From: Lacipirellula parvula
GTDB taxonomy: Bacteria > Planctomycetota > Planctomycetia > Pirellulales > Lacipirellulaceae
DNA: 64,000 nucleotides
Direction of reading: 5' to 3'
Assembly: GCF_009177095.1 (NCBI RefSeq)
Contig: NZ_AP021861.1
Coordinates: forward strand, 1,178,001 to 1,242,000
Part shown: piece by piece, positions 7,876 through 40,300 of the stretch
Layout: every line of letters begins with the position of its first letter
How positions within the stretch are numbered: the first letter of the stretch is position 1
Program-made: the position numbers and the translations under genes
The notes under the pieces: model-generated
What the model was told of the DNA's origin: nothing
The model's input: the letters and a program-made list of their open reading frames with translations, nothing else
Databases searched by the model: none

Positions 7876-10440
7876 ATGGAACTCTTCCGCCGCTCGCCCC
7901 TTGCCCTCTTCTCGAGCATTGCGATCGCGATTGCCGCCAGCTGGTTCGCCGGCGCGAGCGTCGCTCAAGCGGAGGCCGTCGGCAAGATCAAGCTGCCGCC
8001 GGGCTTCAAAGCGGAACTCGTGCATGAAGTCCCCGCAGAGACCGAAGGCTCTTGGGTGGCGCTGACCCCAGACGACAAGGGGCGGATCATTGCGTCCGAT
8101 CAGCATGGCTCGCTCTACCGGATCACGCCGTCGCCGCTCGGGGCCGATCCCTCGCAAACAAAGGTCGAGAAGCTCAAAACGAAAATCGGCATGGCCCAGG
8201 GCCTGCTGTTCCATGAAGGCAAGTTGTACGTCGTGATGAACGGCGACATTGGCGGGTTCAGTTCGGGGTTGTATCGGCTCTCTGACTCGAACAACGACGA
8301 CCAGTTCGATCGCATCGAGCAGTTGCGGGTGTTCGAAGGCGCCGGCGAACATGGACCGCACGGCATCGTGCTCGGGCCCGATGGGAAGAGCTTGTACGTC
8401 GTCTGCGGCAACCATACGGGCGCGCCGCTGTTTAGCAGCTCGGCAGTTCCCGCGCGGTGGCGCGAAGACCAGTTGCTGCCGCTCATCACCGATCCCAACG
8501 GCCATGCCGCGGCGATTCGCGCCCCGGGCGGCTGGTTCGCGAAGATGGACCTCAACGGCGAGAACCTGGAGATGTTCTCGATTGGTTACCGCAACGCCTA
8601 TGACTTGGCGTTCAACGATGCGGGCGATTTGTTCACGTTCGATTCCGACATGGAGTGGGACATTGGCGCCCCGTGGTATCGCCCCACGCGGATCTGTCAT
8701 GTGGCGAGCGGCAGCGATTTTGGTTGGCGGACCGGCAACAGCGTCTGGCCGACCTACTACATTGATACCGTACCCGCCGTCGCCGACGCGGGGCCGGGTT
8801 CGCCGACCGGTGTGGTGTTTGGCAAGGGGGCAAAGTTCCCGGAGAAGTACCAGAAGGCCCTCTTCGCCGCCGACTGGAGTTATGGCAACATCTATGTGGT
8901 CAACCTGACGCCGTCTGGTTCGTCGTACACTGGCGAGATCGAGCGGTTCGCCAACGCGATGCCGCTGGGCGTGACCGACATGGTCGTGTTGCCGAAGGAT
9001 GGGGCGTTGTACTTCGCCGTCGGCGGACGGAAGAGCGAATCGGCTCTTTACCGGATTGTGTACGACGGCAAAGACGCGCCGGCCGATGCGCCGAAGTTGG
9101 AAGTTGTCGCAGAAAACGATCCGCAGCGGGTCTTCGGCAGCGGCGCCCCTGCCCCGCCGGCGCCGGAAGCCCACGCGATACGCGTGGCTCTCGAGAAGCT
9201 AAACCGGCCAGCCGGGCCTGCGGCGATTAACGACATCTGGCCCCATCTCGGCAGTTCTGACCGCTTCATCAAGAACGTCGCCCGCACGGCGCTGGAGCAT
9301 CAACCCTTCTCCCTGTGGCGTGCCAAAGCGCTGGCTGAAAAGAATGTCGACGCCCAGCTGAACGCGCTCGCCGCGTTCGCCCGCGCTGCTGACGCCAACC
9401 AGCAGCAGGCGTGGGTCGGGGCGCTCACGGCGATCAAGTTCCCCGAGCTTTCGACGCAGCAAAAGCTCGATTACCTCCGCGTCGCCTCGCTCGGCGTGAT
9501 GCGACTCGACCCGTTCCAACCGGCGTCGCGTGAGAAGCTGATCGCGGCGCTCAATCCCTACTTCCCCGCCGACGATCACTTCGTGAACCGCGACCTGGGG
9601 AACCTGCTGCTTCGGCTCCGCGCGCCGAACGTCGTGCCGCGGATGCTGACGTTGATGGAAAACGCGACGACGACGGAAGATGCGATCGACTTCGCGGTGA
9701 GCCTTTCCGCGGCACAAGAAGGTTGGACGACGGCCGATCGCATTCGACTGCTTGATTGGTTTGAACGCGCCGCGCATGTCGGTGGCGGGCACTCGTTCTT
9801 TGGCTATCTCGTTTCCGCCCGCGATCGCTACATCGCCAACATCCCGGCGGCCGCCCGCCCGCCGATTGCCGAACGGATCTCGAAGCCGCTCATGCAGCAG
9901 ACGATCGCGATCGACACGGCGAACCGTCCGCTGGTGAAAGAGTGGACGCTGGAGGAAGTGAACGACCTCGTTGCGAACGACAAGTCGCCGCGCAACTTCG
10001 AGAATGGCCGTAAGATGTTCTCGGCCGCGGGCTGCTACAACTGCCACCGCGTCGCGGGCGCCGGCTCGTCGATCGGACCCGATCTCACGGGCCTGGGCGG
10101 CCGCTTTGGCGCCGCCGACATCATGCGGTCGATCGTCGACCCCAGCCACACGATCTCCGACCAGTATCAGCAGATGGTGTTCGAGACGAATGGCCGGATG
10201 ATCGTTGGCCGTATTTCCAACATCAACAACGACGCCATGATGGTCAGCACGAACATGCTCGATCCGAAGAAGACCGAGACGATCAAGCGCGACGAGCTGG
10301 ACGACCAGTTCCCGTCGGACGTCTCGATGATGCCGACGGGCCTGCTCAACACGCTGACGGCCGAGGAGATTCTCGACCTGACGGCGTTCTTGCGGTCGGG
10401 CGGGAAGCCGGAGCATGAGTTGTTTAAGGCTGGCAAATAA
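7876..10440 (+). CDS. PVC-type heme-binding CxxCH protein
   Basis: A secreted 854-residue protein of a family expanded in planctomycetes and verrucomicrobia. It has a signal peptide (about 1-32) and a beta-propeller-like glucose/sorbosone-dehydrogenase type domain (about 35-400), opening with PPGFKAELV and including ASDQHGSLYRI and GPHGIVLGPDG. A helical middle region follows, and then a C-terminal cytochrome-c domain with CYNCH at 720-724 and the downstream SIGPDLTGLGGR typical of this family. The probable axial methionine is in the VSMMPTGLL segment. Substrate is unknown; such proteins are usually proposed to oxidise sugars or similar compounds in the periplasm. The ATG at 7876 immediately precedes the signal peptide. 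Confidence 0.9.
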   Translation: MELFRRSPLALFSSIAIAIAASWFAGASVAQAEAVGKIKLPPGFKAELVHEVPAETEGSWVALTPDDKGRIIASDQHGSLYRITPSPLGADPSQTKVEKLKTKIGMAQGLLFHEGKLYVVMNGDIGGFSSGLYRLSDSNNDDQFDRIEQLRVFEGAGEHGPHGIVLGPDGKSLYVVCGNHTGAPLFSSSAVPARWREDQLLPLITDPNGHAAAIRAPGGWFAKMDLNGENLEMFSIGYRNAYDLAFNDAGDLFTFDSDMEWDIGAPWYRPTRICHVASGSDFGWRTGNSVWPTYYIDTVPAVADAGPGSPTGVVFGKGAKFPEKYQKALFAADWSYGNIYVVNLTPSGSSYTGEIERFANAMPLGVTDMVVLPKDGALYFAVGGRKSESALYRIVYDGKDAPADAPKLEVVAENDPQRVFGSGAPAPPAPEAHAIRVALEKLNRPAGPAAINDIWPHLGSSDRFIKNVARTALEHQPFSLWRAKALAEKNVDAQLNALAAFARAADANQQQAWVGALTAIKFPELSTQQKLDYLRVASLGVMRLDPFQPASREKLIAALNPYFPADDHFVNRDLGNLLLRLRAPNVVPRMLTLMENATTTEDAIDFAVSLSAAQEGWTTADRIRLLDWFERAAHVGGGHSFFGYLVSARDRYIANIPAAARPPIAERISKPLMQQTIAIDTANRPLVKEWTLEEVNDLVANDKSPRNFENGRKMFSAAGCYNCHRVAGAGSSIGPDLTGLGGRFGAADIMRSIVDPSHTISDQYQQMVFETNGRMIVGRISNINNDAMMVSTNMLDPKKTETIKRDELDDQFPSDVSMMPTGLLNTLTAEEILDLTAFLRSGGKPEHELFKAGK

Positions 10441-37946: not shown

Positions 37947-39344
37947 ATGACGCCTGACAGCCAACCTGGACCGCCGCCCACAAACCGTAGTCGCCCCAGC
38001 GCGGCGGCGGCGCCCGGCACGTCGGTGAAGCGTCGGCATCACAAGCTGTTGCGAGCCAAGCAAAAGCTCGGCAAGTACATCATCGAACGCAAGCTCGGCG
38101 AAGGGGGCTTCGCCCTCGTCTATCAGGCGAAGGACGAGATCGAAGGCATCCGCGTCGCGCTGAAGATTCCGCACGCTCACCTGCTCACCGGTTCGGCGCT
38201 CGAAGACTTCCGCCGTGAAGTTCGCATGGTCGCTCAGCTTGAGCATCCGAACATTCTACCGCTGAAGACGGCGCAGTTCATCAACGAGTATTTCGTCATC
38301 GTCAGCGCGCTGGGAATCGAGACGCTCGACGATCGCATCAGCCGGCGGCTGTCGATCGATACGGCTCTTGAGTTCGCGCGGCAGATGCTCGCCTCGGTGG
38401 CCTACGCCCACAGCCAGCAGATCATTCACTGCGATATCAAGCCCGACAATTTCATTCTGTTCGAAGACAACCGCCTGCGGCTCACCGACTTCGGCGTCGC
38501 GAAGGTTGCGCAGCGAACGCTGCGGGCCTCGGGCGCCGGGACGCTCGGCTACATGGCGCCGGAACAGGCGATGGGACGCCCTTCGTTCCGCAGCGATGTC
38601 TTCGCGATGGGCCTGGTGCTCTACCGGATGTTCGCCGGCCGGCTGCCCGAATATCCGTTCGAATGGCCGCCGGCAGGTTATCGCGAACTGCAGCGCAAAG
38701 TGCATCCGGCCCTGATCGAGCTGATGCGTAAGGCGATGGAACTCGCCCCGCAAAAACGCTTCGCCGACGGCGAGGCGATGCTCACGGCGTTTAGCCGGAT
38801 CAAATCGCCCAAGGGAGGCCGCACGGCGGCGAAGCGCGGCACGAAGAGCTCGCGCCGCAGCGCCGACTGGAAGACGATCCAGCGGCGACAGTTCCAGCAA
38901 GAGTTCGGCAAAGTGCTCGACGCCAAGCACAACTGCCAAGCGTGCAATGGCCCCGTTTCCGAACCGATGCAATGCTGCCCCTGGTGCGGCAAGAACCGGT
39001 TGGCTCACGAAGGGACGACCGACTTCCCGCAGCAATGCCCACGCTGCAACCGCGGCATGAAGCTCGATTGGGAGTATTGCCCCTGGTGCTACGGCTCCGG
39101 CTTTGAGCCCTCCTCAACCCGCAAGTACACCGACAAACGCTACACAGGCCGCTGCCAGAACGCCAAATGCACCCGCAAGGTGCTGATGCCGTTCATGCGG
39201 TACTGCTGCTGGTGCCACCGGAAAGTTCGGAAGAAGTGGAAGATCCCGGAATCGAATCGGACGTGCGGCAGCTGCGGTTGGGGCGTCGTCCCCGGCTACT
39301 GGAGCCACTGTCCTTGGTGTTGCAAGCGACTGGGAGGACAATAG
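37947..39344 (+). CDS. Ser/Thr protein kinase with C-terminal quadruple zinc-ribbon region
   Basis: A 465-residue soluble kinase. The glycine loop is GEGGFALV at 51-58, the ATP lysine K73 is in ALKIP, the catalytic loop is HCDIKPDN with D163, and DFG is at 181-183. The HRD motif reads HCD, so the usual RD-regulation arginine is replaced by cysteine. The tail (about 328-465) has four CxxC pairs of the zinc-ribbon type: C330/C333 with C344/C347, C364/C367 with C378/C381, C403/C408 with C420/C423, and C440/C443 with C455/C458. There is no transmembrane segment. A PP2C phosphatase gene follows 113 bases later, so they form a reversible phosphorylation module. Targets unknown. Confidence 0.88.
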   Translation: MTPDSQPGPPPTNRSRPSAAAAPGTSVKRRHHKLLRAKQKLGKYIIERKLGEGGFALVYQAKDEIEGIRVALKIPHAHLLTGSALEDFRREVRMVAQLEHPNILPLKTAQFINEYFVIVSALGIETLDDRISRRLSIDTALEFARQMLASVAYAHSQQIIHCDIKPDNFILFEDNRLRLTDFGVAKVAQRTLRASGAGTLGYMAPEQAMGRPSFRSDVFAMGLVLYRMFAGRLPEYPFEWPPAGYRELQRKVHPALIELMRKAMELAPQKRFADGEAMLTAFSRIKSPKGGRTAAKRGTKSSRRSADWKTIQRRQFQQEFGKVLDAKHNCQACNGPVSEPMQCCPWCGKNRLAHEGTTDFPQQCPRCNRGMKLDWEYCPWCYGSGFEPSSTRKYTDKRYTGRCQNAKCTRKVLMPFMRYCCWCHRKVRKKWKIPESNRTCGSCGWGVVPGYWSHCPWCCKRLGGQ

Positions 39345-39457
39345 TCGCGGTTGTGACGACCGGCGTCGCGGGACTTCAGACTTCCGCGAGACTTGACCGA
39401 TTGGGCAGAGTATAGGCTGTGCGCCAACGATGCGGCGCGTTCACGCAAGCGACCACG

Positions 39458-40300
39458 ATGGACTGTCAGCAACTCACCACCCCTGAATCGCGGGTCTACC
39501 TGAACGTCGACATGCTCGAACCGGAAGTGTTCGAGCTGGCGGGCGGGTCGGTGGCGGTGTTGTCGGCGCGCAAACCCGAGAAGGCGACCGCTAACGAAGA
39601 CGCGGCCGCGGTAGTGGCGACGGGCGAAGGCTCGGCCGTGCTGATCGTCGCCGACGGCTGCGGCGGGATGGCCAACGGCGAACAGGCGGCTCGCATTGCA
39701 ATCGACTGCCTCACGAATCACATCGCCACGGCGGCTGCGGCGGGCGAATCGCTGCGGACCGCGATCCTTGACGGCGTCGAAGATGCGAACCGCCAGATCA
39801 TCGAACTGAAGAATGGCGCCGGTGCCACGCTCGCCGTCGTGCAGCTCGAAAACGGCGAAGCGCGGCCCTACCACATTGGCGACGCCCAGATCGTGATGGT
39901 CGGCGGCCGCGGCAAGGTGAAGCTGCTCACCACCTCCCACTCGCCGGTCGGCTACGCGATGGAAGCGGGGATGCTTGGCGAGCAGGAAGCACTCGACCAC
40001 GAAGAGCGGCATCTCGTTTCGAACTACCTCGGCTCCGAGGCGATGCACGTTGAAGTCGGCAGCGTGCGGACGATGTCGACGCACGACGGCCTGCTCGTGG
40101 CGAGCGACGGCGTCCTCGACAACCTCAAGATGGACGAGATCACCGGCTTTCTGAAGAACGGCTCGGCCGCCACCGCCGCGAGCAAGATCGCCGGCGTGGC
40201 GATGCAGCGGATGCAGGCGTCGCTTGAGGGGCAGCCGCACAAGCCGGATGATCTGACGCTAATTGTCTTCAGCCAGCGCGGGAAGCGGCGGGCGAAGTAG
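39458..40300 (+). CDS. PP2C-family Ser/Thr phosphatase
   Basis: A 280-residue PPM-type phosphatase. The metal-binding aspartates are in NEDAA (about 49-53), VADGCGGM (about 65-72), HIGDAQ and the final SDGVLDN/KPDDLTL. It removes phosphate from Ser/Thr, probably including the linked kinase and its substrates. I prefer the ATG at 39458, as the sequence before it is not conserved-looking; a GTG at 39419 is also in frame. No signal peptide. Confidence 0.85.
   Translation: MDCQQLTTPESRVYLNVDMLEPEVFELAGGSVAVLSARKPEKATANEDAAAVVATGEGSAVLIVADGCGGMANGEQAARIAIDCLTNHIATAAAAGESLRTAILDGVEDANRQIIELKNGAGATLAVVQLENGEARPYHIGDAQIVMVGGRGKVKLLTTSHSPVGYAMEAGMLGEQEALDHEERHLVSNYLGSEAMHVEVGSVRTMSTHDGLLVASDGVLDNLKMDEITGFLKNGSAATAASKIAGVAMQRMQASLEGQPHKPDDLTLIVFSQRGKRRAK

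Follow-up and report, generated by a model that had tools for sequence, protein, structure and literature searches.

What becomes of a bacterial Ser/Thr kinase when its catalytic loop reads HCD instead of HRD, its tail carries eight cysteine pairs, and a PP2C-type phosphatase gene lies directly downstream? The question arises from a 64,000-nucleotide stretch of DNA from Lacipirellula parvula, which we refer to as the window. Bacterial Ser/Thr kinases have mostly been studied as membrane sensors. In contrast, the window kinase belongs to what appears to be a soluble family, present in several phyla, with a nearly fixed non-RD loop, a fixed four-ribbon tail and usually a phosphatase of its own. 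The reading we favour, with a probability of roughly 0.6, is a two-gene reversible switch, in which an active, soluble non-RD kinase would be opposed by a dedicated PP2C and would use its zinc-ribbon tail for docking or control. We regard the pair as a real and widespread architecture of a known kind that is apparently undescribed, as word searches of the open-access literature found no paper describing it. The features discussed below are listed in Table 1.

Table 1. Positions in the window of the kinase-phosphatase pair and its component features
Feature	Positions	Strand	Remarks
Kinase gene	37947..39344	+	465 aa; ATG start; product probably soluble
Hanks-type kinase domain, aa 42-280	38070..38786	+	K73, E91, D163, N168 and D181 present
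Catalytic loop HCDIKPDN, aa 161-168	38427..38450	+	Cys162 replaces the RD arginine
Putative zinc ribbon 1, C330-C347	38934..38987	+	
Putative zinc ribbon 2, C364-C381	39036..39089	+	
Putative zinc ribbon 3, C403-C423	39153..39215	+	first knuckle CX4C
Putative zinc ribbon 4, C440-C458	39264..39320	+	
PP2C-type phosphatase gene, second member of the pair	39458..40300	+	alternative start GTG 39419

The tail by itself served as the query in the whole-genome searches that collected the relatives, so that the catalytic loop could not bias the HCD counts. The tail was matched in 24 of 43 genomes of the window's taxonomic family (22 of them full-length and strong) and in 28 genomes of a sample of 294 Planctomycetota, 16 strongly, with the window's own genome included. 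Pooling gave 37 distinct strong hits, counting the window copy. There were also 13 weak matches in 12 genomes, and the nine that were scanned proved to be eight DnaJ chaperones and one unrelated zinc-ribbon protein (L049). All 13, including the unscanned L052, L055, L056 and L058, were left out of the family counts, as were the weak L032 and L031, a tail fragment from genome G017 with internal stop codons that is possibly a decayed kinase copy. The tail was further found in 42 of 147 genomes of a gammaproteobacterial order, in 2 of 150 genomes of the phylum of the Gemmatimonadota locus, and in 5 of 199 genomes of the phylum of the Acidobacteriota locus. Four of these five are divergent (L171-L174) and combine the same four-ribbon tail with an HRDLTPSN-like loop. 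Whole-genome searches of seven further genomes, not part of the window's sample, gave one kinase copy in each.

An alignment-profile scan of one genome per species returned at least 558 relatives, of which the best 80 were kept. The taxa named among these best 80 of at least 558 are Planctomycetota, Gammaproteobacteria (including Woeseiaceae), Alphaproteobacteria, Deltaproteobacteria, Acidobacteriota, Gemmatimonadota, Eisenbacteria and Verrucomicrobiales, and single odd placements may be binning errors because nearly all relatives come from metagenome bins. An alignment of 74 members comprises the window kinase and 73 of these best 80. Seven were dropped beforehand, namely L069 (unknown residues), L094 and L104 (internal stop), and L123, L129, L134 and L139 (partial).

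The kinase looks catalytically competent from its sequence. Its catalytic domain matches PF00069 with an E value of 1.2e-38 (133.5 bits against a cut-off of 31.7; best stretch aa 44-236) and contains the VAIK lysine, the alphaC glutamate, the catalytic aspartate, the asparagine and the DFG motif of a Hanks-type Ser/Thr kinase. E91, D163, N168, D181 and G183 are present in all 74 aligned members and K73 is present in 73. A counterpoint is found at catalytic-loop residue 165, where lysine (63 of 74 members) is replaced by Thr in 10 and Asn in one, or 11 members altogether. A full-length structural model (mean pLDDT 84.8, pTM 0.57) aligns best with PknA (Z 27.6, rmsd 2.7, 249 aligned) and PknB (Z 26.9, rmsd 2.4, 237 aligned), which we treat as a tie. 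The first approximately 33 residues are an extension found mainly in close relatives and are predicted to be disordered. No membrane helix was detected in the kinase, for which the maximum mean hydropathy over 19-residue windows is 1.13 against a threshold of 1.6, and none of the 74 aligned members reaches that threshold. Because no such window attains a mean of 1.6, the kinase is probably soluble, and the description of a cytosolic kinase in the first-pass annotation agrees with this intact domain lacking a hydrophobic helix. In the window genome (6.92 Mb), 36 kinase matches fall into about 33 places, and the nearest named relative at the locus is Lacipirellula limnantheis, with 94% identity.

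That annotation had also drawn attention to HCDIKPDN in place of HRDIKPDN, and the loop is a hallmark of the family, not a local oddity. The window kinase has Cys162 where members of the RD subclass have the arginine that precedes the catalytic aspartate. HCD occurs in 45 of the 50 tail-found members with a readable site, which divide into 35 of 36 Planctomycetota, 10 of 10 from genomes not chosen by an HCD pattern, and none of the four divergent Acidobacteriota. Among the 37 distinct strong tail hits, the window included, 35 have Cys162; L047 has HRD, and the open frame of L014 does not extend as far as the catalytic site. The loop of L046 reads HCDVTPGN. The close-tail loci kept from the seven-genome, Acidobacteriota, Gemmatimonadota and gammaproteobacterial searches all carry HCD (14 of 14), four of them coming from genomes chosen with an HCD-containing pattern. 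Position 162 of the 74 aligned members is Cys in 70, Ser in two, Gly in one and Arg in one, an HCD rate that is biased because the alignment-profile scan used HCD and CPWC patterns. A simple motif reading of the 32 other kinases in the window genome gave HRD for 24, HSD, HGD and HLD for one each, and no reading for five, and the window kinase is the only HCD example seen in this way. The activation loop is short throughout, with 20-22 residues between DFG and APE in all 74 aligned members.

An HCD loop is compatible with activity in eukaryotes. An HCD catalytic loop in an active kinase is described for DYRK in a structure paper (PMC3677093), and according to a second source PKD has HCD and is active, yet still needs loop phosphorylation (PMC6099456). 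Since DYRK and PKD are active and PKD depends on loop phosphorylation, an HCD loop is evidence neither of an inactive kinase nor, strictly, of independence from loop phosphorylation.

A quick tree of 98 kinase domains places 76 zinc-ribbon kinases, a number that leaves aside the four divergent Acidobacteriota, in one group with SH-aLRT support of 99. The HRD members L135 and L047 split off first and the HCD group follows with support of 84, so arranged that HCD looks like a derived trait that later became nearly fixed. The four divergent Acidobacteriota lie outside the main group on a long branch whose position the tree does not settle. The midpoint root and short search make this tree only indicative.

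The tail contains 16 cysteines, at positions 330, 333, 344, 347, 364, 367, 378, 381, 403, 408, 420, 423, 440, 443, 455 and 458. The earlier count of eight CxxC-type pairs was right as to the number of pairs, of which seven are CxxC and one is CX4C (C403/C408), and its mention of both 'four' and 'eight' is consistent because eight cysteine pairs make four ribbons. These ribbons would be arranged as two double ribbons, and the 16 invariant cysteines suggest four bound zinc ions per chain. Because every one of the 16 cysteines is kept in all 37 tail-found relatives and all 74 aligned members, the pattern is not due to chance, and the spacing 2-10-2-16-2-10-2-21-4or2-10or11-2-16-2-11-2 is common to 67 of the 74. 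Conservation extends to the non-cysteine residues W346, W375, Y399, R418, Y419, K426 and W452, each conserved in at least 95% of the aligned members, and many tail residues other than cysteine reach at least 90%. This exceeds the needs of zinc binding and suggests a binding surface in addition to a zinc structure.

Modelling of the tail alone, a check proposed in the first-pass annotation, yielded a confident and compact unit of one helix followed by short strands (pLDDT 90.6, pTM 0.84) with no good match among solved structures. Foldseek gave no usable match (best E 1.4) and VIA-align gave no Z of 2 or more among 21 chains, results that do not indicate a new fold. A profile search of solved sequences with the tail was likewise weak, the best hit being a DnaJ zinc domain at E 0.009. 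Resemblance to DZR proteins (PF12773) is more consistent: the window tail scores 23.7 bits, which is below the curated cut-off of 27.3, and all 60 tails compared match DZR at E 0.1 or better, the best at 2e-14. The difference from DZR proteins is that two tandem double ribbons are here fused to a kinase.

The downstream gene product matches PF13672 with an E value of 2.2e-16 (60.5 bits against a cut-off of 24), which places it in the PP2C/PPM family. Judged by eye from the N-termini of relatives, ATG 39458 is the likely start over GTG 39419, and with residues counted from this ATG the Asp/Gly motifs D48, D66/G67, D142, D210, D217/G218 and others are near-invariant in 54 partners. The window genome contains two PF13672 matches, one of which is this protein, and PF00481 finds only the other one. 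Of 51 relatives examined, 43 have a PP2C gene as the next gene downstream of the kinase, in the same orientation (31 of 37 from the Planctomycetota tail searches and 12 of 14 from the other-phyla and seven-genome searches). Among the best 80 of at least 558 relatives it is found downstream in 64, within 1.5 kb in 61 and overlapping by a few bases in three, and five of the 16 other loci stop within about 300 bases of the kinase; the 51-locus and 80-locus sets share organisms and are not independent. Since 8 of the 51 relatives have no detected adjoining PP2C gene, the pairing is not obligatory.

Pairwise distances among the kinases and among their PP2C partners correlate with a Mantel r of 0.90 for 54 pairs, a value matched in none of 999 permutations, although a correlation of this kind is also expected from plain co-inheritance as one unit. 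Adjacency in 43 of 51 loci and this r of 0.90 lend strong support to the earlier suggestion that the neighbouring PP2C makes the module reversible. A scan of the pair for promoters and terminators detected no sigma-70-like site and nothing resembling a terminator in the intergenic stretch; one terminator-like site was seen within the kinase gene on the opposite strand, which is below the shuffled mean.

Some loci depart from the usual pair. In L136, an HCD zinc-ribbon kinase is followed after 17 bases by a different-looking PP2C gene (8292-9080), too different to be found by tblastn with the window PP2C at 1e-5 and excluded from the counts, which is perhaps an independent recruitment. An HRD zinc-ribbon kinase in L191 (4153-6273) is followed by a calcineurin-like phosphoesterase, so that another phosphatase fold occupies the same place. 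No adjoining PP2C match was found in the stretches read of the divergent Acidobacteriota L171-L174.

Only the PP2C gene accompanies the kinase in the window, and upstream lies a divergent gene for an AMP-binding enzyme. Loci of the Woeseiaceae type often continue after the pair with a Gly-rich protein and a further lipoprotein-like protein (in 18 and 15 loci, respectively). In the few loci that were read closely, the neighbours are signalling-type genes and not translation genes. One of these loci (L097, 7001-15263) carries, after the pair and two lipoprotein-like proteins for which no Pfam match was found, a second kinase with TPR and then a PEGA protein whose N-terminus is FHA-like by eye, with FHA itself unmatched in Pfam. 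Similar Woeseiaceae loci resemble this arrangement. In two further gammaproteobacterial loci (L073, 1-3240; L087, 2-5748), ExbB/MotA-like and FHA-domain proteins are encoded upstream of the pair, and L087 additionally encodes a PEGA/FGE-sulfatase protein together with a pair of small proteins whose 'SLSFLD' N-termini are alike; one of the small proteins matches VWA weakly.

Intact catalytic residues, the HCD loop, the invariant 16-cysteine tail, the adjacency and co-divergence of the PP2C, and the absence of a membrane helix are all read from sequence, and we interpret them as a two-gene reversible switch that would operate as follows. The first gene would produce a soluble, catalytically competent Hanks-type Ser/Thr kinase. 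Its non-RD catalytic loop leaves the kinase without the arginine that normally clamps a phosphorylated activation loop, and together with the short activation loop this means that activity is probably set by something other than canonical loop phosphorylation. Such activation independent of the loop is not assured, because PKD, which is likewise HCD and non-RD, depends on loop phosphorylation. From their conservation, the most probable role of the two double zinc ribbons is to provide a rigid platform, for docking or regulation, that receives a protein partner or substrate. The second gene, probably co-transcribed with the first, would supply a dedicated PP2C that removes the phosphates. A more specific version, which we offer only tentatively, is a multi-phylum module with a constitutively competent non-RD kinase that is gated by a ligand of the double ribbons (a nucleoprotein, the ribosome, or a metal or redox state) instead of by loop phosphorylation, and that usually has its own PP2C as eraser. 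The family is a well-defined target for the study of bacterial kinase control without the RD mechanism, and of how one kinase among about 33 pairs with one of very few PP2Cs.

Another possibility, raised in the first-pass annotation, is a tail with affinity for nucleic acid or the ribosome, which would bring the kinase to the transcription or translation machinery. Ribosomal proteins and RNA polymerase subunits often contain zinc ribbons, and a ribosomal bL32 chain does appear in the profile search, though at E 0.067 only. The tail is also basic (+19 net in the window protein, with a median of +18 over 60 members), and conserved Arg, Lys and aromatic residues adjoin the ribbons. However, the remainder of the protein is similarly basic (median +16), and no nucleic-acid binder gave a significant structural match to the tail. 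No ribosomal or transcription gene was noticed near the pair in the 8 of 80 loci read, and in some Gammaproteobacteria a second kinase and proteins of the FHA, ExbB-like and PEGA kinds are the neighbours. We consider this possibility rather unlikely.

Still less probable, in our view, is a redox or zinc sensor, wherein oxidation of the tail (possibly with Cys162) would release zinc and switch the kinase on or off. The 17 conserved cysteines in one soluble protein and the position of Cys162 beside the catalytic aspartate are in keeping with this proposal, and redox control via the HCD cysteine is raised in the DYRK structure paper (PMC3677093). Control of the DYRK type needs a second cysteine at the start of the activation loop, whereas Cys162 is the only common cysteine column before the tail; a DYRK-like intramolecular disulfide is unsupported, there being no second common cysteine in the kinase half. 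At position 162, three related members carry Ser or Gly, and with many non-cysteine residues fixed alongside the 16 tail cysteines, a structural or binding role suits the tail at least equally well. Finally, a pseudokinase that acts as a scaffold, with zinc ribbons holding it together, might be imagined from the replacement of HRD by HCD and from the minority with HCDVTPGN-type loops, but DYRK-type HCD kinases are active, the kinase is consistently paired with a phosphatase, and because the catalytic residues are kept we reject this very improbable explanation.

The two-gene switch has partial counterparts among known systems. PknB/Stk1 and Stp/PstP-type PP2C are paired in bacterial operons, and the window pair resembles the PASTA kinases and their phosphatases in that a Hanks-type kinase gene adjoins a PP2C gene, as well as in kinase fold. 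Unlike PknB/Stk1, the window kinase is without a transmembrane helix or a PASTA domain (none was matched in Pfam), has HCD in place of HRD and a short activation loop, and carries C-terminal zinc ribbons; its best NCBIfam match is the PASTA kinase family NF033483, with 161.7 bits against a cut-off of 450, which leaves it outside that family. The mycobacterial and corynebacterial PknG is a non-RD kinase with an N-terminal rubredoxin metal module and C-terminal TPRs, and the likeness lies in the combination of a soluble kinase with a Cys4 metal module. The window kinase differs in having four C-terminal zinc ribbons and a PP2C partner, and it falls outside the PknG family, with rubredoxin and TPR unmatched in Pfam at E 1 and the metal ligands located C-terminally.

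The HCDIKPDN loop is the feature shared with the eukaryotic DYRK/HIPK kinases and PKD, HIPK kinases also carrying HCD. The activation loop of DYRK/HIPK kinases carries YxY, and that of the window kinase, VAKVAQRTLRASGAGTLGYM, does not. The window kinase further differs from DYRK and PKD in lacking the second cysteine for a disulfide, in its other accessory domains, and in a fold closest to that of PknA/PknB. Comparison with defence systems (PD-T4-6, MAD6 and BREX PglW) gave what look like generic kinase matches: the NCBIfam models for MAD6 and PglW score far below cut-off against the window kinase, and 34 PADLOC families match it, the 25 listed doing so only over the kinase domain and the nearby linker.
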